NCBI GenBank assembly: GCA_024741835.1
Contig: JAENRP010000587.1
Location: forward strand, 1 to 16,286
From: Diplocarpon mali
Lineage: Eukaryota > Ascomycota > Leotiomycetes > Helotiales > Drepanopezizaceae
DNA length: 16,286 bases
Reading direction: 5' to 3'
The translations under genes were made by a program, and so were the position numbers. Under the pieces are notes generated by a model. The model was not told the origin of the DNA, did not search any database, and saw only the letters and a program-made list of their open reading frames with translations. The stretch's first letter is position 1, and every line of letters begins with the position of its first letter. Below, one piece after another: positions 2,805 through 16,286 of the stretch.

Positions 2805-3051
2805 TGTTGCAGGTATGCCTGTCACATATTTGTCATATGATCTGTCACATGACACATTATATATATGATATGTCATATGACTTACCATATGACTTAGCGC
2901 CTTCACTAAGAAGGCCGCTTACCTTAAATAGCTCCTAGTTAGAGAGCTCTTATAAATCAAGACACCTAACATCGTCGTTTGTACCTTATACTTCTTCGTA
3001 CCCTCTTTTAGTTTACTATTAAGTTTACTATTAGAGAACCTCCTTGCTATA
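2805..3051 (+). repeat. copia-M 5' LTR
   Basis: The LTR begins TGTTGCAGG and ends CTTGCTATA; the mate at 8217-8463 begins TATTGCAGG and ends CTTGCTACA, so each copy keeps one canonical TG/CA terminus and lost the other by a RIP-type change. Both are exactly 247 bp. The first third carries repeated TCATATGA palindromes (also as GTCATATGAC), possible U3 control sites. No TATA box can be assigned with confidence in this AT-rich DNA. Confidence 0.95.
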
Positions 3052-3066
3052 GGTTATGAGCCCCGC
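3052..3066 (+). promoter_or_regulatory. copia-M primer-binding site, initiator-Met half-tRNA type
   Basis: GGTTATGAGCCCCGC starts directly after the LTR. Its reverse complement contains GGGCTCATAACC, the anticodon-loop region (anticodon CAU) of eukaryotic initiator tRNA-Met, rather than a tRNA 3' end. Drosophila copia and yeast Ty5 are known to prime from an internal iMet fragment in this way. The identification is from remembered tRNA sequence and the exact tRNA of this fungus is not visible here. Confidence 0.75.
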
Positions 3067-3162
3067 ATGCCTATAAATAGCATTTGATAAATTCCATCGA
3101 TTAGAGTCTCCCTTATAAATGAAAAGGCTAATCGATATTTTTTTTAAGTTTTTTACTCAACT

Positions 3163-3184
3163 AATGACGCACGATAGCGTCATT
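3163..3184 (+). other. Perfect 8-bp hairpin in the copia-M leader
   Basis: AATGACGC and GCGTCATT flank the 6-nt loop ACGATA. The stem lies about 100 nt after the primer site and before the gag frame, the usual zone for packaging or dimerisation structures. It survives intact in a RIP-mutated element. Function is inferred only from position. Confidence 0.6.
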
Positions 3185-4517
3185 TTAATAATAAAACAGT
3201 AGCTACTCCCCTTCTGGAGCGCTATGTAATAATCTAAGCTTACGCAAGATTTGTCACTATAGCTGAATCATTAGGACTGATAGCTAAGATTACTAGCTTA
3301 ATTGCTAAAAGTACTCTACTGCCTGAATCACCTAATTTTAAAGGGACTAATATATAGTACCCTAAACTCGAATTCAATAGTTTATCTCCTCCTCCTCCTC
3401 CTTCTTTACCTTCTCCTTTCGATAACTCTATATATAAATATATAAATAAGATGTTGTTATTATCTTTAGCTGCCCTTAGCCTCCTTGAGTCTTAAAAGCT
3501 TAAAGGCGCAGAGGACTATAGCTAATAGAGGAATAAGGTTTTGAACCTTATAAAGTCAAACGCCTTAACTATATATCTTTATATAAAAGCTAGAATATAT
3601 GCTCTACCTAAGGTTGACTTATAAGACTGTTCTATTACTCTTAAGGAAAGGGATAATTGGATTAGATAAGAAGCTAAGGAATCTCAGATAAAGCTTGCTA
3701 TTATACTTAATTGTAAACTAGGCCTATTAGCTTATATAGAAGGCGACAAATCTGCCTTAGATATATAAGAAGCTCTTTAAAAATAATATAAAGGATCTGA
3801 AATAGTGCTTAAATATAATGCTATATAGACCTATGTCACTATCAAATATAACGACTTCAACTCACTTAAAGCTTATATCGTCGCTTTTAGACTTTCAATT
3901 ACTAAATTAGAAGCTCTCGACTCTGCCCCTCCCTCTTACTAGCATCCTATTATATTTATTGCTAGCTATTCTAGTAGATGGCCTATTTAGGCAGATCGAT
4001 AATACTCTAACCTTCGCTTAGCTATAGCAGCTGGACGAAAATCAAAGATCACGCTTAAAGCTCTTATTAAAGATATTACTAATAAAGCTCGAGCTTTATA
4101 GAGTTTAAAAATAAACGGAACTATCTTATATAGTAACATATCGGCTAGTAAGCCGCATTTATCTAACTATAAGAAGTCAGAAAACAAAGGAGGTTTTAAA
4201 GACTTAAAGAAGAGCACCTTTAAGAATACTACCAATTCCTTTAATTCCCCTAACTCCCCCTATCCTTATTATAAGCAACTAGAGCCATACTATAAGGCAG
4301 AAGATTGCTTTGCAATTAATAAATCGAAAAGAGAGGCCTAGAAGAAGGATTTAGGAAAGAAGTATATATTCTATTACCTTAAAGGCAAGGACGATAAGTC
4401 CTTGCTATTATTACTAAAAGGTAAGAAGCCTTTTAAGAAGATTCAAAAGGAAGATAAAGAGTCAGATAATAACCTCTTTAGGCATACTATACTATTACTA
4501 ACCCTAGGGCTAATTCT

Positions 4518-4596
4518 CACTTGCGAGCTGGGCCTAGGAGTCAATTCCGACTCCTCTCTAAGGCCAATTTCCACTCGCGGGCCGGGCCTAGGAGTC
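4518..4596 (+). repeat. Two GC-rich units in reverse orientation after the gag zinc knuckle
   Basis: Units at 4518-4542 and 4572-4596 (54 bp apart, a multiple of 3) read GCGGGCCGGGCCTAGGAGTC, the reverse complement orientation of the units at 5985-6153. They encode T-[RC]-[GE]-[PL]-GLGV followed by [NS]S, in frame with gag-pol. Between them CCGACTCC and the preceding GAGTC form a small inverted repeat. A weaker partial unit may lie just upstream (CCTAGGGCTAATTC, about 4503). Confidence 0.9.
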
Positions 4597-5984
4597 AGTT
4601 CTTCTACCTCTTACTTCTTATCAAAATTGAGGAATCGTTAGCTATACAATATAAGTACTAGTAAGCATATCTCTAATAATCTCTCTAAGTTTACCTCTTA
4701 TACTACTTAAGATAATCTACCCTCTTTAAGTATAGTTAATAGATTTATTTAACCTCTTGGCGTTAGCACTTATAAAGTCAATGCACTTAAATCTAATAGA
4801 AAGGTATATATTCTTAAGTTAATTAATACTCTTTATATACCTTAATTACCTATCTGCCTATACTTAGGTAGTAAACTTAATAAAATCAAAGGCTTTTATT
4901 AAAATAGTAAGCTATTTCTATCTAATAAGAAGGAAATTTGCACTATTAATAATAATATATATATTAATAAGGAATAGCCTTCTATTAACTCCTCTAGTTA
5001 TATAAGTGGATATGCTCTCTTAGCTACTATTAAGAATAGACCTTTTAATATTAAGCTCTGGCACTATCGATTAGGCTATACTAGCTTACAAACGGTTAGA
5101 AAGACCTAATCTATTATTACTAATATATAGATTAAGGAAACAAAATCAAGAAAGACGCGAATCTATGCTCCTTGCAAGAAAGGCAAACTTCTTTAATATA
5201 TTAATAAACGTTTAGCTCGCCCTTGACCTACGAAGGCACTTAATAAGCTATACGTCGATGTTATTTATTTAAAGCCAACTAGCCTTAACGGCTATAAATA
5301 CACTTCTATCTTTACTTATTTAGCTATAATAGTTAAATGGGAATAGACTTATATAAATAAATCTAATGCCTTTAAGGCAAATAAGAAGATGATCAGCCTT
5401 TTACAAACTTAGTATAATCGTATAATTAAGCGATAGAGAACTAATAGAGGCAAGGAGTACTCTTTTATATAGATGCGAATACTTATAGAAAACCTTGGTA
5501 TAATTTTAAAGGAATCTATTCTATATATACTAGAATAATATAGTAGATCGGAACGATTAATTCGTATACTAATGGAAAAGTTGCAAATAGCTATAATTAA
5601 TTAAAATATCCCCTCCTTTCTCTAGCCTTACCTCCTTCTTTTAGTAATATATATTACTAATCTTACCGCCTTTAATATTCTAAGTGGTAAGACTCTATAT
5701 AAGGTCTTTTAGGATAATATTAAGCTTAATAAGCCTTATACTCCCTTAGTCAAGCATCTTCGAGTACTAGGCTATTACGTCTATATACTAATTAAGAAAG
5801 AAAAGCGAACTTAAAGTAATAAACTTACTTTAAGAGCAAAGGTAGGTACTCTTATTAGATTTAATAGCAGAAGTATCTATTAGATCTATATACTATTATA
5901 AATAGATGAAAAGATTATTCGATTATCTTATATTCGATTTGATAAAGACGGCCTAATTATAAAGCCGCAATTAAGAGGTGATTT

Positions 5985-6153
5985 GACTCCTAGGCTGGGA
6001 CTGCGAGTCAATTCTCACTTTTATAATTTCACTCTTAAGCCGGGACCGCGAGTCAATTCTGACTCTCCCGATTTCACTCCTAGGCCGGGACCGCGAGTCA
6101 ATTCTAACTCTTACGATAACGATAATTTCACTCCTAGGCCGGGACCGCGAGTC
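5985..6153 (+). repeat. Four in-frame GC-rich units between integrase and RT
   Basis: Units of 25 bp at 5985-6009, 6030-6054, 6075-6099 and 6129-6153 share the core CTAGGCCGGGACCGCGAGTC. Starts are 45, 45 and 54 bp apart, all multiples of 3 and 9. Each encodes TPRPGPRVNS or a close variant (TPRLGLRVNS, TLKPGPRVNS, TPRPGPRVDL), joined by short polar spacers. The region is a hydrophilic linker where copia polyproteins tolerate length change. The units are strikingly GC-rich against the AT-rich surroundings and carry few RIP changes; units 3 and 4 are almost identical. Confidence 0.95.
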
Positions 6154-7950
6154 GATTTAAAAGAAGCTAATAAAGCTGAGCTTCTAACTCTAAGAAAGAG
6201 AGGAAGACCTCTTAGTTTAAAGAATAAGGCTTACCCTTAGCCTTTTGAAAAGAGAGCTACTCGCTTAACTTATACTCTTAGATTTAAAGCTAATAACTCT
6301 AATAATAAGGAAGCCTATTTAGGCGCCTTCTATATGGCCTTACTCGACTCTCCTTACCTAAATGACCTGAAAATAGTCGAATAAGCCCTCTCTTATACTA
6401 ATGCTAATAAATAGCGATCTGCGATCAACTTTAAGTACAATTCTCTTGCTTATAAGAATATATAAGTAGTAGTAAAACGCTTAAAACTCTCTAAAGACAA
6501 TAGAGTACTTAAATTAAGACTTATCTTTAAAACTAAAAGAGACTAAAATAGGGAAATCTCCTAATAGAAGGTCAAATTCGTTATATAAGGCTATATATAA
6601 TAATAAGGTCGAGATTACAACTAAACATTTGCTAGAGTTTGCAAATCTGCAATTTGGAAGATTGCAATTGCGCTAGCAGCGCTATATAACTTTAAGCTAG
6701 ATTAATTCGATATTAAAATAGCTTTCCTTAATTTAGAAGCTGATTCTAATATCTATATCAAGTTACCTCTTAGATATACTTAAGATAAGGTCGTTCTTTT
6801 ACCTTAAGACTACTATCTTAAGCTTCTTAAGGCCTTATATGGCTTAAAGTAATCTTTACAATTATAATAAGAAAAGCTATAGTCCGAGCTATAAAAGCTC
6901 GATTTTCAACCTCTTAATACTAACAATTATATATATATCAACTGCGCCTCTCGGATTCTTATTATCACTTACGTTAACGACTTCCTTATAGTAGTTAAAA
7001 AAGGTGATATATATAATAAGTTTAAAAGAGATCTTCGCAACCTCTTTAAGATTATAGGTAGCAAATTGGCTAACTACTTCTTAAAAGTATATATAGTTAG
7101 AGATCGATAAAATAGAACGATCTTACTTTATTAAAACGCTTATATTAATAAGGTTCTTAAACGTTTTTATATAACTAATTGTAAAAGCGTACTAACGCCT
7201 TTTGCTAATGGCTATAAAGTTCATATAGTCAAATTTGAAGGCTAAGCCACTTTATAAGAAGTGAAGCTATACTAAGAGATCTGTAGTTCTCTATAGTACC
7301 TTGCGCATTATACGCGTTAGGATATACTATACTACTACTCTATTCTTAGCAAATTCCTTACTAACCCTTTACTATAATATATGGCAGCTTTAAAACGAGT
7401 TTTATAATACTTGTAAGGAACGCGATTCTATTATACTACCTTCGGAAGTAAAACAATTGACCTAGAGCTTTAGAAATTATATAGCTACTGCGATTCTAAT
7501 TAGGCAGGTGATAGAGGAAGTAAAGCCTTTTATTCTAGGGCTATCTTCTTCCTTAATAATAGCGTAATTACCGCCTCCTTTAAGCGATAGACTATTATCG
7601 CTCTCTTATTTATAAAAGTAGAGTATATTGCTATATGCAAATTCGCATAAGAAGCCTCTTAGATACGCTAGGTACTTAAAGAAATAGGCTACGCTAGCGA
7701 TGATACTACTAAAGTCGAGATGATTTGCGATAACTAAGGAGCCCTTTATCTTATTGAAAACCCCGAATATTATTAGAAAATAAAGCATATTAATATCAAG
7801 TTCTATTATATTTAGCAAAAGCTTTAGAAAGGCCATTTGGACCTTTAGTATACAAATACTAAAGATAACGCTACCGACGGCCTTACTAAGAGCTTAAATA
7901 GCTCTAACTACGCCGCCTTTATCAAATTGTTAAATATAAAGGTTCTGTAC

Positions 7951-8038
7951 CTCGATTAAGGGGTGATTTTTTTTTGCACCTCTATTATAGGGTGATTTTT
8001 TTTTTTGTACTTCTATTAAGGGGTGATTTTTTTTACTC
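7951..8038 (+). repeat. Three tandem copies of a ~29-bp poly-T repeat at the end of copia-M pol
   Basis: Copies at 7951-7979, 7980-8010 and 8011-8038 follow [CT]TC[GT]ATTAAGGGGTGA plus 8 to 11 T and then GCAC/GTAC. The first overlaps the pol stop codon. Length differences lie only in the T run, suggesting slippage. The AAGGGGTGA motif resembles the element's own polypurine tract (AGAGGGGTG at 8208-8216), so the copies could act as extra PPT-like sites; that is speculation. Confidence 0.9.
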
Positions 8039-8058
8039 CTGGGCCAGGCCTGCGAGTT
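8034..8058 (+). repeat. Single GC-rich unit in the copia-M 3' untranslated region
   Basis: CTGGGCCAGGCCTGCGAGTT is a seventh copy of the GC-rich unit found in the polyprotein linkers, in the orientation of 5985-6153. Here it lies beyond the stop codon, after the poly-T repeats. Its presence outside the frame shows the unit is not only a protein-coding repeat. Confidence 0.85.
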
Positions 8059-8216
8059 GATTTTGACTTACTAAGGGGTAGATTCGCGCTAGCGAACTCT
8101 ACTCTATTTCCTATATCTGCAGGTTGATCTTTTATGCGAAACTGTAAATTATAATAAAAGTTATGATATTATATATATTGCTAGCGAGTACCTTTAAAGG
8201 TCTCCCTAGAGGGGTG
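8059..8216 (+). promoter_or_regulatory. copia-M 3' untranslated region ending in a polypurine tract
   Basis: This stretch has no coding content. It holds a 5-bp stem TTCGC/GCGAA at 8083-8096 and ends with AGAGGGGTG at 8208-8216, directly before the right LTR. A G-rich purine run in this place is the plus-strand primer of LTR retrotransposons. Confidence 0.8.
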
Positions 8217-8463
8217 TATTGCAGGTATGCCTATTATATATTTGTCATATGATCTATTATATAATATATCATATATATGATATATCATATGACTTGCTAT
8301 ATGACTTAGCGCCTTCACTAAGAAGGCCGCTTACCTTAAATAGCTCCTAGTTAGAGAGCTCTCATGAATCAAGACACCCAATATCGTCGTTTGCACCTCA
8401 TACTTCTTCGTGCCCTCTTCTAGTTTACTATCAAGTTCACTATCAGAGAACCTCCTTGCTACA
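8217..8463 (+). repeat. copia-M 3' LTR
   Basis: This 247-bp LTR is the mate of 2805-3051. The two differ at 26 positions, all C/T or G/A, with no indel. The right copy carries more changes in the first third (U3 palindromes), the left copy more in the last third, so both were mutated independently after insertion. Confidence 0.95.
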
Positions 8464-8468: not shown

Positions 8469-11400
8469 TAAAGAGTTTAATCTTAATACTAATAATATGG
8501 CAAAACTCTCTCTAAAATAAGGAGACGAATTAGGGGCCTCGGTCCGAGATAATTATCTTTAGGGTATAGCCGAATCGATAAATCCATTAAACGAATAATT
8601 GGGCAGTTCCTTAAGCGTTAATATCTTTTTAATAAGGGATCGTAATAGCGCTTTTACTAAGTCGGTCTATAAATACTAGAATCCGATCAAAGCTGTGCTT
8701 ATTAGAAGGGAAATCCTTAAAATCTATATATAAGTGCTATATAGGATAGTTAGGAATAGGAAAGGGCTATAAAAGGCCTTATTATTTAATTATCTTCGAA
8801 TATAAGAATTGATAAGGTCTATAGTTTATAATAAATCTTTTATAATCCGAACCTATCCTAATCTAATAGTACTTAAAAGCGAATAACTAATAGGTCTTTA
8901 AGCTACTAGGGTGCGCGCTTAAAGGTTAATTATAAGCTTCTTAAATTAGATAAGTGTATAAGAGAGTATTATAGCGTACGCAAAGACGCTCTTTAAAGTA
9001 AAGCAATCTGTCTTTTAAAGAGTAGTTTTTAAGGAGGTCGGCGCAAGTCTCTTAGAAGGATTCGCAATTGTTTTAATAAAGCTTCTTAATTAAATTTAAG
9101 GAATCCTTAGGTCGATTTAGGGTCGAATTAGAAGTATCGGTTAATATTAGGATAAGGGTTCTCTTAGCGGATTCGGCGAGAAATTTATCAGCTAGTTTAG
9201 TTTTAATTCGAAGGTCCAATTAAGTAGGAGAAATCAGAACTTAAGATCGGCTATCTAGCTTTGCTTATTTATAAACTGGCATATCCTACTCTTAGCAGTT
9301 AAGAATATCAGCCTTCTAGTTGTCTTTGCTAAAAGTATATATAATTCGAAAATTAAAGTTAAATAAAAATTCTATCTATTAGTACTATTTCATAGTTAGA
9401 ACCTTAATAATTATAAAGTACTTAAGGGAGCGGTGATCTGAGTAAATATCAACTTGCTCCTTAAGTAATATAAGCTTAAGCCTCTATTTATAGTAGGATT
9501 CTATAATAGCAAAGAGTTCCTTATTATATATTTCCTAATTAGGTTTATAATTAAAGAGTACGTGCGAATAGAAGCCAATTAGGTACTATTGCTTATTAGA
9601 GTATTGCTAAGAAAGTACTTTAGCGATAATACTATTAGAAGCGTTAGTTTCCAGCTTTATAAGCAAGTCGGGGTCAAAATAGTATATCTGCTAAATTAAG
9701 AGCAACTGCTTGCGAAGCTCTTTAAAGGCGATTCGGCACTCTTTTATCTAATCCTAAGGTACTATCAGTTAAGTTAAAATAGAAAGAGGTTTAGCGATTA
9801 GCTTAAAGTTGCAAATGAATTATCAATAGAACTTATAAAATCTTAAGTAGGACTTTATTTTAGTAATAGTTTTCAAATACTTTTAATTGCTTAATAGTTC
9901 GACCTTTTTAAGGTCTAGTTCGATCTTAGTTATTATTAGAATATATTTAAGATATTAAGTTTAAGTAATATAGAACTTACACTTCTTAATATTTACTTAA
10001 AGGCTAGCCTTAAAGAGTCGTTTTAGTACCTTTTTAATATAATCCTAATACTCCTTTATATTCTTAAAGTAAATTAAAATATTATTTAAATACGCTATAT
10101 AAAAATCATTTAAGTAATTCAAAAGAACGTTATTTATATACTACTAGTAAGTACTAGGTCTATTATAAAGGCTAAATAGGAGAACCTTATATTTATAGGA
10201 TCTATACCTTATTTGAAAGGTAGTATATTCCTTTGATTTAAGGTCTATTTATATTCGATCAAAAGCGGCTTAAATATCCAATTTTATAAAAATCTTAGAT
10301 TTAGATACTCGCCTTAAGAGCTCGTCTATCCTTAGAATCGGGTAAGCGTCTTTTTAAGTTAATGCGTTTAGCTTTCGGTAGTTTATATAGAATCAGAGGC
10401 TACTATCGGCCTTCTTTATAAATAGTACTAGCGAAGCAAAGGGGCTAATACTTATCTTAATAAAGCCTTTGTCTAAATTCTTAAGTAAGTACTCCTTTAT
10501 AACCTTAAGCTCCTTAATAGATTGACGGTAAAGGGGCGAATAGGCGTTAGGCAAGGGCCCTTTTAGCTATATCTTATAATTATAATACTAATAGGAAAGA
10601 AGGGTATCTGCATCCCTTTTTAAAAAGGCTTATCTTAAAGATTAGTACTATTTTAAAAGTCGATTATTAATTAGCTTTTCGATATTAGGCTTCTTAGGCT
10701 TATATCTTTCCTTTAAAATCCTATTTACTTTATAAATGCTAGTTTAAAAGAACTCAATCTCTTTATAATTTATATTATAATAAAAGGCGTTAGTATTAAT
10801 TTCGCAAATAGGAACTGCTACTTTAGGGCATTTGCAAATAGGGTTAGAACGTAATCGATTTATATTAGCTAGATCTAGCTTAATTATAAGCGGGGGCATT
10901 GGCCTAGTAATAGCAATAAGGATCTTGCGCCTAGTTAAAACTATTAAATTAATATAAGACTATCTTTTATTAATCTATTAAGCTTTATCTATAGCTATTT
11001 CCTATTCTTTACAATTAATATTAGCTTAATAATCGGATTAGATCTAGAGTCCTTTAAAAGGGAAAAGACGAATAACGATTTCCTTTGCAAATCGGGGAGA
11101 TAAGGGGTAATATAAAAGCTATATAAATCGGTTTTCCTTCGGATTAAGTTTAAATTAAAATCGATATATCCATTTAACTATAATAATAGTATTACGCTGG
11201 CCTAAGTCGAGAATAAGTTAAGGGCAATTATAAATACGCCTTCTATTAATTATTAAGTAAAAGCATATATAGTATATAACTTGCGCGCAAATAGTATTTT
11301 AAAATCTATAAATAGGAATAGGGGCTAGAAGAGGAAGAATTTTAAAGCTAATTACTTTTAAAAGATATATAAAAAGGGAACGATTTAAAAATAGGTAACT

Positions 11401-13935: not shown

Positions 13936-14065
13936 TGTGACGATTCGTCACCCGCTTAGGTAAGCGTGGCCCGTGCGCGCACTACAGGTGTATATCTGTA
14001 TATAGAGGCACCGTAGTATACCTGCTCCCTAATTGATTATTCTTATACTATACCCGACCGTTATA
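13936..14065 (+). repeat. Left LTR of the gag-only element
   Basis: It starts TGTGACGATTCGTCACC and ends CCGACCGTTATA (the mate ends TTACA). It contains the 13-nt palindrome TGACGATTCGTCA at its start and the perfect palindrome GTGCGCGCAC. The GC-rich first half stands out from the AT-rich surroundings. Confidence 0.95.
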
Positions 14066-14186
14066 TTATAATCAATTCCCTAGTTGCGTGCTGCGGTATA
14101 CGTACGTTTGTTTATCTACGTTTATTTGTTCGATACGCTATAATACGATACGTTTATACGTTTGTTTATACGTTTGTTATATTACG
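14066..14186 (+). repeat. Leader of the gag-only element with short tandem repeats
   Basis: About five copies of a TACGTTTGTTTAT-like unit lie at 14099-14180, between LTR and gag. The primer-binding site should begin at 14066 (TTATAATCAATTCCC), but no tRNA match was recognised. Repeated leader sequence might serve packaging; this is inference. Confidence 0.65.
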
Positions 14187-15347
14187 ATATGCCCCTTTAC
14201 CCCTTTCAACGGTTATTCCTATCAACTTCCGAACTACCCTCTTACCGGCAGCTTTGCAAAATAGCTACTAACCAATTTTACTTCTTTTATACCTTTCGTT
14301 TTTATTATATTTACTATAAGCAATACAGCTACCGAGCTCTTAGAGCAGTTAGTCAAAATATAGCTCTCCCTTCTCAACCGGCCCGCACTTAGGCTGAAAC
14401 TAGTACTTTCGGAACCCGAAAAATTCAATAGTATACTAGTTAAGTAGGATACTTGGTTACCTTTGATTAAAGCAAAACTATAAGTCGATAGCAAAGCGAT
14501 TAGTGACTTAATAGCGCAGTTCTATTACGTATATTTGAACCTCGAATCTATAGCGCAAGCTCTTATACTCCTTTAGCTCGCGGCCGTAGAAGCTTTAAAT
14601 ATATAGAATTATAATTCGATTCTCGACTAACTGTCGCTAGCTTACCATTTGCCGAATAAGGTATAAGAAGCAGAAGATAAGCTGTATAAGTGCAGCTAAG
14701 GTAGCGATTCGATTCTTATATATATCGCGCGTTTCAAGCGTCTTCTTTTCAAAGCTTAGAATCAAGGTCTTGCTAATTATATTAAAATCGCAATTTTCAA
14801 GCAAGGCTTAAACTCGATAATATAGAATCGACTTACTACGCAGCTTAAGCTTCCCTTTGATTATACAGAATACCTTTCGATTATATAATAGCTTTTTGCG
14901 CGCTTTATACACTTTAGACCGTCTGCGTCTTCGTCTTCTTTTATACCTTATATGATATACCCCTGGCCTTACTCTCGATCGCACTCTTAGCCTTATAACG
15001 ACCCTATAGATACGTCATTAGGGTAGGTAGAAACTGCTAGCAATAGCAGTATAGGGATTTTAACAATCGAGATCAACTACCTTAAGGAGATATTAGTACC
15101 GAAGCTAGGCATAAATACAATTATAGAAGATACGCAGTCAAGGCTTAATGTAATCAAAGGCCGAAGGTACGCCTCTCCCTTATAATAAGAGCGATAGCGC
15201 CGTTAAGGCAATTGTATGAATTGCGGCGATTATAACTATTAGGCGAACGAATGCCTATATCAACGCGAGGTTGTTAGCTTAAAAGAGCTGCGCAGCCGAT
15301 ATAAAGCTTAGGAATCTGCGTTATCGGAAGAAGATAAGGATTTTTGA
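14187..15347 (+). pseudogene. Gag of the non-autonomous element, RIP-inactivated
   Basis: A plus-strand frame (codon starts equal to 0 mod 3) is readable for about 387 codons to TGA at 15345-15347, with only RIP-type stops. The capsid region contains AEDKLYKCS, then GSDSILIYIARFKRLLF and IKIAIFKQGLNS followed by RLTTQLKLP, the retrotransposon Gag pattern of gypsy-like elements (roughly residues 150-230). A Ser/Pro-rich linker follows (RPSASSSSFIP). The zinc knuckle at 15213-15254 is CMNCGDYNY...ANEC with CX2CX4HX4C spacing; His is now Tyr and a Trp or Gln is TAG. A basic/acidic tail ends at the stop. The start is probably an ATG changed to ATA at 14187; this is uncertain. Alone it could only supply capsid, so transposition needed RT and integrase from another element. 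Confidence 0.88.
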
Positions 15348-15416
15348 TTTGATTTTTTAATACGCCTTTATTTCCTTATTATTATTCTTTATAAGCTAGG
15401 GACAGCTCGCTTTTTC

Positions 15417-15431
15417 GAAGGGGGGGGGTAG
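15417..15431 (+). promoter_or_regulatory. Polypurine tract of the gag-only element
   Basis: GAAGGGGGGGGGTAG, with nine G in a row at 15420-15428, ends directly before the right LTR, the position of the plus-strand primer. A run of nine G is exceptional in this AT-rich window. The 69 nt between the gag stop and this tract show nothing else. Confidence 0.9.
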
Positions 15432-15561
15432 TATGACGATTCGTCACCCGCTTAGGTAAGCGTGGCCCGTGCGCGCACTATAGGTGTATATCTGTATATA
15501 GAGGCACCGTAGTATACCTGCTCCCTAATTGATTATTCTTATACCATACCCGACCGTTACA
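15432..15561 (+). repeat. Right LTR of the gag-only element
   Basis: This 130-bp mate of 13936-14065 starts TATGACGATTCG and ends CCGACCGTTACA. The four differences are G/A at base 2, C/T in CTACAGG, C/T in ATACCATAC and C/T in the last CA, each at a CpA or its complement. Confidence 0.95.
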
Positions 15562-15566
15562 TTAGA
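15562..15566. repeat. Target site duplication TTAGA, right of the gag-only element
   Basis: TTAGA matches 13931-13935 and lies directly after the CA of the right LTR. Removing the element and one copy joins copia-R pre-integrase coding to its integrase in frame. Confidence 0.95.
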
Positions 15567-15707: not shown

Positions 15708-16240
15708 AATTGTAAGCCTAGCTTAAAAGTCGTTTTTAATAAAGCCGTAAGATCTACCTATAGTCTTAGCTTAAGAGTCGACTTTTTAAAAATAGCAAGA
15801 TCTACTTATAATCTTAGCTTAAGAGTTATTTCTAATGAATTTGCGAAGTTTACTTATAGTCTTAGCTTAAGAGTTATTTTCGCGAATTTCACTTGCAATT
15901 CTAGCTTAAAAGTTATTATTAGCAAATCTATAGAATGTACTTATAATCTTAGTCTAAGAGTCATTTTTATCAAATTTACTTATAATCTTAGCTTAGGAGT
16001 TATCTTTAAGGATATCTTATAATTTACTTATAGTTTTAACTTAAGAGTTATCTTTATAACTTTCGCTTGCGATCTTAACTTAAGACTTTATCTATTTTCT
16101 TGATCTTTACTTAATTATATTAAGGTAGAGAGTGTACTTTCTTTAAAGGAATCCACTTATAGGTTTAGCTTAAGAGGTAATTTTTATAATATTATTTCTA
16201 AGATAATATAAACTCTATTTTTAATTTTAGCTTAAAAGAT
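15708..16240 (-). repeat. Twelve-unit RIP-degraded array of the GC-rich unit in copia-R
   Basis: Units of about 24 bp start (plus coordinates) near 15708, 15756, 15804, 15852, 15891, 15939, 15978, 16026, 16065, 16109, 16155 and 16217. Starts are mostly 48 or 39 bp apart, multiples of 3 differing by 9; the unit near 16109 is degenerate. In sense (minus) orientation the core TTAAGCTAAGACTATAAGT aligns with CTAGGCCGGGACCGCGAGT of copia-M with nine transitions and no transversion or gap. The protein read is TLKLRL*V against TPRPGPRV. Array and coding frame coincide throughout. Confidence 0.88.
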
Positions 16241-16286
16241 TATTTTATAGTTATTATTTATAAACTATATAAATTGATTATTAAAA
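16231..16286. repeat. Right copy of the 56-bp repeat shared by both window ends
   Basis: It matches 1-56 with four differences and lies in the copia-R protease region. It overlaps the last unit of the array, so the array in this family begins right after this conserved protease stretch. Confidence 0.85.

Follow-up and report, generated by a model that had tools for sequence, protein, structure and literature searches.

Protein-coding palindromes are known from bacteria and an archaeon (PMC2996958). Rickettsia palindromic elements (RPE) and the palindromes of Wolbachia and Methanocaldococcus lie in frame in unrelated open reading frames (ORFs), encode a peptide and are tolerated in unstructured segments, features shared by the unit described here (PMC10969869, PMC2996958). 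RPE are ~150 bp long, bacterial and located in cellular genes (PMC10969869), whereas the fungal unit measures 23-35 bp, lies, in the cases seen, in ORFs and UTRs of retrotransposons, and forms tandem arrays. Yeast mitochondrial GC clusters (GC42 and others) are likewise short GC-rich hairpin palindromes scattered in AT-rich DNA; they are mitochondrial, mostly intergenic and associated with AG target nucleotides, and GC42 has 42 nt (PMC4478555). In contrast, the fungal unit lies in LTR retrotransposons and preserves the frame in coding arrays; its flanks are RATTY-like. Palindromic amphipathic repeat coding elements (PARCEL) also consist of dyad DNA encoding tandem peptide repeats, are associated in certain taxa with mobile elements and carry a 25-residue amphipathic DUF285-like motif (PMC2996958). 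The fungal unit, in contrast, spans 7-8 codons, and no DUF285-like PARCEL family was found among the Pfam matches of the unit loci (E up to 0.01 or 0.05). MITEs resemble the unit in being short and non-autonomous and in having inverted repeats; usual MITEs are far longer. Palindromic or hairpin repeats reportedly occur also in the mitochondria of Fusarium and of sponges.

The unit, ACTCSCGGKCCNGGMCCGSGAGT, is an almost perfect palindrome of 23 bp. On each side it has 6 bp of loosely conserved flank, and it occupies 23-35 letters in the genome without or with these flanks. We analyzed a 16,286-nucleotide stretch of Diplocarpon mali DNA (the window), in which a sequence-only reading had noticed the repeat by its core, CTAGGCC. 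This core is real, but the window unit is a RIP-decayed version of ACTCSCGGKCCNGGMCCGSGAGT, as the little-RIPped gypsy copies show. Across 221 units, C>T and G>A changes account for 838 of the 864 deviations from ACTCSCGGKCCNGGMCCGSGAGT; the quoted core is therefore a RIP product. The count is somewhat biased because the scan charged transitions half, but the scan also admitted as many as four changes of other kinds in each unit. The differences not of RIP type number 26 in 5,083 positions, and the unit was nearly uniform before RIP. A little-RIPped gypsy-A copy (L051, L052; G000 C48) is present among heavily RIPped ones; its GC content is ~51%, and two of its stretches match P0008, a protein of D. 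coronariae, at 95-96% identity and contain three stops each. It contains the near-palindrome ACTCCCGGTCCCGGACCGCGAGT and a second form, ACTCCCGGTCCCGGCCCGCGAGT, in which one and two, respectively, of the 11 pairs are mismatched, and a perfectly symmetric palindrome is located at C644:448. Because the unit is a nearly symmetric palindrome, its occurrence in two orientations, previously presented as a separate feature, is for the most part a consequence of its symmetry.

When folding was compared with that of shuffled sequences, four of five little-RIPped units gave z scores of -3.1 to -4.5 and the fifth -1.7, and two decayed window units did not stand out from the shuffles (z +0.85 at 6124 and -1.0 at 8029). 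A search for covariation at core pair 9/15 in the 221 units gave no support for it, with 107 paired, 113 unpaired and one other. The GC-rich palindromic hairpin is set in AT-rich DNA, whose AT-richness RIP has probably caused. Sequence information is limited to the 23 bp plus ~6 bp per side, RATTYN and NRAWTY (24 sites, several of them from one array or element); beyond ~6 bp, no flank is common to different unit sites. The in-frame translation is T-P-G-P-G-P-R-V or T-R-G/E-P-G-P-G-V, mainly Pro, Gly and Arg.

The arrangement of units in the window (Table 1), with four between integrase and RT, two after gag and one in the 3'UTR of the element copia-M, agrees with the earlier description. The 20-mer used there occurs exactly at 6080 and 6134, with two mismatches at 5990 and 6035, and with three at 4572 on the minus strand; the largest count in 200 shuffles was 0. 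The units of the IN-RT array follow each other at 45, 45 and 54, and the two gag units are 54 apart. Since 19 of 20 genome loci matching the 20-mer contain copia-M copies (86-91%), most of its matches in the sampled loci are copies of this element. The copia-R array, previously counted as 12 degraded copies, is real; ten units, starting from 15708 to 16155, are recoverable at a score of ≤6.5 against 0.66 expected from the reversed sequence, with spacings of 48/48/48/39/48/39/48/39/90, and the count of 12 is reached at ≤7.5, where 2.8 are expected. A homologous, less decayed array is found in L049, where SH3 and RVT_2 share its frame, and also in the protein P0001. Beside the window array, a small LTR element is nested; its 131-bp terminal repeats are 97.7% identical, and by eye it has a gag-like zinc-knuckle reading. 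The window also holds a RIP-decayed Ty3/gypsy element, in which no palindrome unit scored 4.5 or better. The window starts and finishes in the same repeat, because its ends have a 56-bp direct repeat in common (92.9%).

Table 1. Coordinates of the palindrome units and of the elements around them. Positions refer to the window unless a locus or contig is given.
Feature	Position	Strand	Basis
copia-M, Ty1/copia LTR retrotransposon, RIP-decayed	2807..8461	+	LTR pair; Retrotran_gag_2, SH3, RVT_2 in frame 3400+3n
copia-M LTRs, 243 bp	2807-3049 and 8219-8461		90% identical
Palindrome unit, gag-PR linker, phase 0	4519..4541	-	23-mer scan, Pfam frame; relatives without insert
Palindrome unit, gag-PR linker, phase 0	4573..4595	-	20-mer and 23-mer scans, Pfam frame
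Palindrome unit 1, IN-RT array, phase 0	5986..6008	+	20-mer and 23-mer scans, Pfam frame
Palindrome unit 2, IN-RT array, phase 0	6031..6053	+	20-mer and 23-mer scans, Pfam frame
Palindrome unit 3, IN-RT array, phase 0	6076..6098	+	20-mer and 23-mer scans, Pfam frame
Palindrome unit 4, IN-RT array, phase 0	6130..6152	+	20-mer and 23-mer scans, Pfam frame
Palindrome unit, copia-M 3'UTR, ~75 bp past stop matching the P0009 end (by reading)	8035..8057	+	
Ty3/gypsy element, RIP-decayed	8500-10419	-	RVT_1, RNase H, integrase domains
Nested LTR element	13938-15564		131-bp terminal repeats
Array in copia-R; 10 decayed units could be recovered, at spacings of 39/48/90	15708..16177	-	scan against reversed sequence
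Direct repeat, 56 bp	1-56 and 16231-16286		92.9%
copia-R UTR units	L049:225 and 291		by reading
Giant gypsy element, copy 1	G000 C1:394937-406603		
Giant gypsy element, copy 2	G000 C1:430263-441925		
Giant gypsy element, copy 3	G000 C4:2865-14535	reversed	

The sampled units that could be classified belong to four families of LTR retrotransposons, of which two are copia (copia-M, copia-R) and two Ty3/gypsy (gypsy-A, gypsy-G), assigned by Pfam domains or by a genome spacing ladder. The presence of the unit in several unrelated families, previously proposed for two copia families, was thereby upheld, but the limitation to copia was not. Seven coding sites are anchored by Pfam domain frames: gag-PR and IN-RT in copia-M; a site upstream of SH3 in copia-R; the gag N-terminus, PR-RT and RNaseH-IN in gypsy-A; and a gypsy-G site flanked by RNaseH and the zinc domain of the integrase. 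Further units were placed by eye in open frames of gypsy-G gag, Y1, Y2, W1 and W2, and UTR units include the one of copia-M and two of copia-R (Table 1). The spacing ladder (~1009/1916/162/1967/2698/1386/876-885/1644-1648), which agrees with distances in L050, L023 and L053, indicates that clusters F3, Z, Y and W are parts of one giant gypsy element; because the ladder joins them, the host families number four, and an estimate of six or seven was dropped. In each of three copies of the giant element, nine palindromes keep their distances from one another across 11.7 kb; by eye, the element also has apparent extra open frames downstream of integrase. Pfam searches (E up to 0.01 or 0.05) gave no domain in L021, L024, L053 or the initial 1.7 kb of L018. 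One isolated unit place, at L056:1171-1532, proved to be a diverged retrotransposon, a gypsy-G relative of ~65% identity (RIP included); it has a unit at the aligned site, and the gypsy-G insertion is therefore old.

The genome search that allows C-to-T and G-to-A changes, suggested by the sequence-only reading, gave 4,976 forward and 4,951 reverse matches in the 49.4-Mb genome and none on either strand in the control. Since 63 of the 100 matches listed (from three contigs) are distinct places, we estimate ~6,000 distinct units genome-wide. Published D. coronariae assemblies measure 50.7-54.5 Mb (PMC11527701). Reversed-pattern controls were zero in all six genome pattern searches, which rules out chance or a simple repeat as the origin of the units. 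An initial scan of the 20-mer loci and the window found the same 23 bp in further contexts, with none in the reversed sequence at that threshold. Flank clustering of 221 units from 45 loci (258 kb), picked for containing units, gave 20 clusters, and 218 units fall in 17 convincing contexts with identical 23-bp borders; three single-unit clusters (scores 3.5-4) were set aside as possible chance. The distinct zero-mismatch places, all 43 of 43, fit known retrotransposon contexts when their 6-bp flanks were judged by eye, for a pattern whose end letters leave out places having G there. Among the sampled loci and zero-mismatch places, no unit outside retrotransposons was met. The likeness to RPE put forward by the earlier reading extends to the palindrome and the in-frame peptide but not to the ~150-bp length; a spread through ordinary genes was not seen at the 43 zero-mismatch places. 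The hosts are spread over many contigs, one of 560 kb, and are not mitochondrial. The exact unit pattern had no match in viral contigs and none in bacterial and archaeal genomes (collections without fungal genomes).

The spacing in multiples of three was corroborated. In the four best-supported coding arrays it holds for 111 of 111 spacings (copia-M IN-RT, 38/38; copia-M gag, 17/17; copia-R coding array, 50/50; gypsy-A PR-RT, 6/6), compared with 2/9 in the copia-R 3'UTR array; the spacings are not independent, as the copies have a common history, and the distinct values in the four arrays are 39, 45, 48, 54, 66 and 90. The remaining sets are gypsy-A gag (3/3 at 75 bp, with weak second matches), gypsy-A RNaseH-IN (3/6, where the misses of 31, 61 and 62 resemble weak chance matches), gypsy-G gag (0/1), the copia-M 3'UTR (5/5, a single value of 54) and unclassified units (0/2). 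In-frame insertions encoding the peptide are present in retrotransposon ORFs, with 1 to 10 units per site. ACT is a codon, i.e. the unit is in one phase, at six of the seven domain-anchored sites, the exception being RNaseH-IN of gypsy-G (L054:1503), and at all five open-frame sites judged by eye. The chance of six or seven of seven sites being in one phase is ~0.02 by a hand calculation that assumes independent sites. Stop avoidance was ruled out as the cause of the common phase, because each of the three phases of the un-RIPped palindrome, by reading, is free of stops.

When proteins were searched with the copia-R array, three of 4,893 candidates passed E ≤ 10, all from D. coronariae: P0001 (copia-R), P0008 (gypsy-A; E 0.24) and P0009 (copia-M; E 0.46), the latter two accepted despite these values because their peptides match; candidates were ~532-1,694 residues long, and single units score too low to show in such a search. 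The peptide motif is present in three of 128 compared proteins, all Diplocarpon coronariae, and in 0 of 15 aligned copia-M relatives. The gag-PR linker of P0009 has 76 residues against 46, 49 and 45 in P0010, P0011 (Rhynchosporium graminicola) and P0013 (R. agropyri), an excess of 27-31 residues, roughly the length of two units; in P0012 and P0021 this linker is longer although the motif is absent. The IN-RT linker of P0009, which carries units, is not longer than those of relatives (111 versus 121, 115 and 121), which counts against the insertion reading. The comparison of copia relatives with and without units, suggested along with the original observation, thus identified relatives without the motif at the protein level, but no empty site in DNA: copia-M sites in this one genome, window included, were filled in 18/18 (gag), 16/16 (IN-RT) and 19/19 (3'UTR) cases, and no empty site was found in the gypsy element of the window. 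Direct repeats flanking the unit at its own site exceed those of permuted pairs (133/5000 in the plainest test and 23/5000 in the best of eight; 20 sites), which is suggestive of target duplications; no single duplication length stands out in this excess. Inverted flank repeats show no excess over permuted pairs at the 20 sites, and no inverted flank symmetry per site.

The reading that we prefer, and hold to be about as likely as not, is that a palindromic coding element of very small size, comparable to RPE or GC clusters, made its way into several families of retrotransposons and was multiplied along with them. Single palindromes, selfish or mobile, would insert into retrotransposons on repeated occasions, at RATTY-like sites, perhaps via an enzyme supplied in trans or via hairpin copying. 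Insertions would survive where the frame stays open, mainly in polyprotein interdomain linkers and also in UTRs; some may then expand in tandem, and the host retrotransposons would multiply the units to thousands, with RIP decay afterwards. The off-phase gypsy-G site counts against this reading, as do the uniformly filled copia-M sites and the direct-repeat excess that has no one length. Confinement to retrotransposons, equally expected from exchange between them, counts against a mobile element. A more specific version, namely a self-spreading ~25-bp palindrome that is specialised on LTR retrotransposons, keeps the frame and mostly one phase, places Pro-Gly-Arg tracts in polyprotein linkers and has parasitised copia and gypsy lineages of one fungal genome, can be offered tentatively and is in our opinion doubtful; to our knowledge, no eukaryotic mobile element is as small as ~25 bp.

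In the main rival explanation, RT template switching or hairpin gene conversion copies short stretches among co-expressed LTR elements, and the palindrome itself is immobile. That all classified contexts are LTR retrotransposons, together with the zero-mismatch places assigned by eye, suits such exchange, as does the hairpin-forming RNA of the unit. Array linkers of some different families also align (e.g. copia-R and gypsy-A, with TCTGC.AA.TCG at the same offset), but this similarity is not clearly above shifted controls (0.33 in register versus 0.366 at shift -7). With the flanks differing beyond ~6 bp and each element having units in several unrelated sites, we regard exchange as possible rather than probable. 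Selection could instead maintain a cis-element that benefits the retrotransposons, either a dyad to which a protein of the host binds or a hairpin in the RNA that acts in packaging, dimerisation, export or silencing escape. Such an element would fit the near-perfect dyad, the very low non-RIP divergence and the units in several element parts, UTRs included, yet it appears unlikely, given that sites hold from one to ten units and that the coding phase hardly varies, a regularity not required of a site in DNA or RNA; moreover, identical borders in unrelated contexts would favor common descent over convergence. Vertical descent of a repetitive linker ancestral to the families, or chance GC-rich coding repeats, is very improbable and largely refuted. 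The copia-M units are indeed ancestral to the copies sampled, and one gypsy-G site is common to the ~65% relative; nevertheless, copia and gypsy polyproteins differ, the gag-PR, IN-RT, PR-IN, PR-RT, RNaseH-IN and UTR sites are non-homologous, which rules out an ancestral linker as the source, all 15 aligned copia-M relatives are without the motif, and the pattern controls of zero speak against chance repeats. Confinement to one clade by tandem expansion of a common linker, or spacing without a 3-bp bias, named by the sequence-only reading as evidence against itself, was looked for and not found.

The earlier statement that no description of such a repeat was known agrees with our literature search, which gave no description of such palindromes in the fungal nucleus or in retrotransposons, in a body of literature that leaves most subscription papers outside; the stem 'palindrom' is absent from the main texts of two Diplocarpon genome papers (PMC11527701, PMC5628827). 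The fungal case offers thousands of copies in four host families, with some little-RIPped copies and with RIP marking the decayed ones, and both the movement of a palindrome and the addition of a peptide to proteins would become testable by assembly comparison. A very short palindromic coding element of this kind would reveal that retrotransposons have parasites much smaller than the non-autonomous elements that are normally considered.
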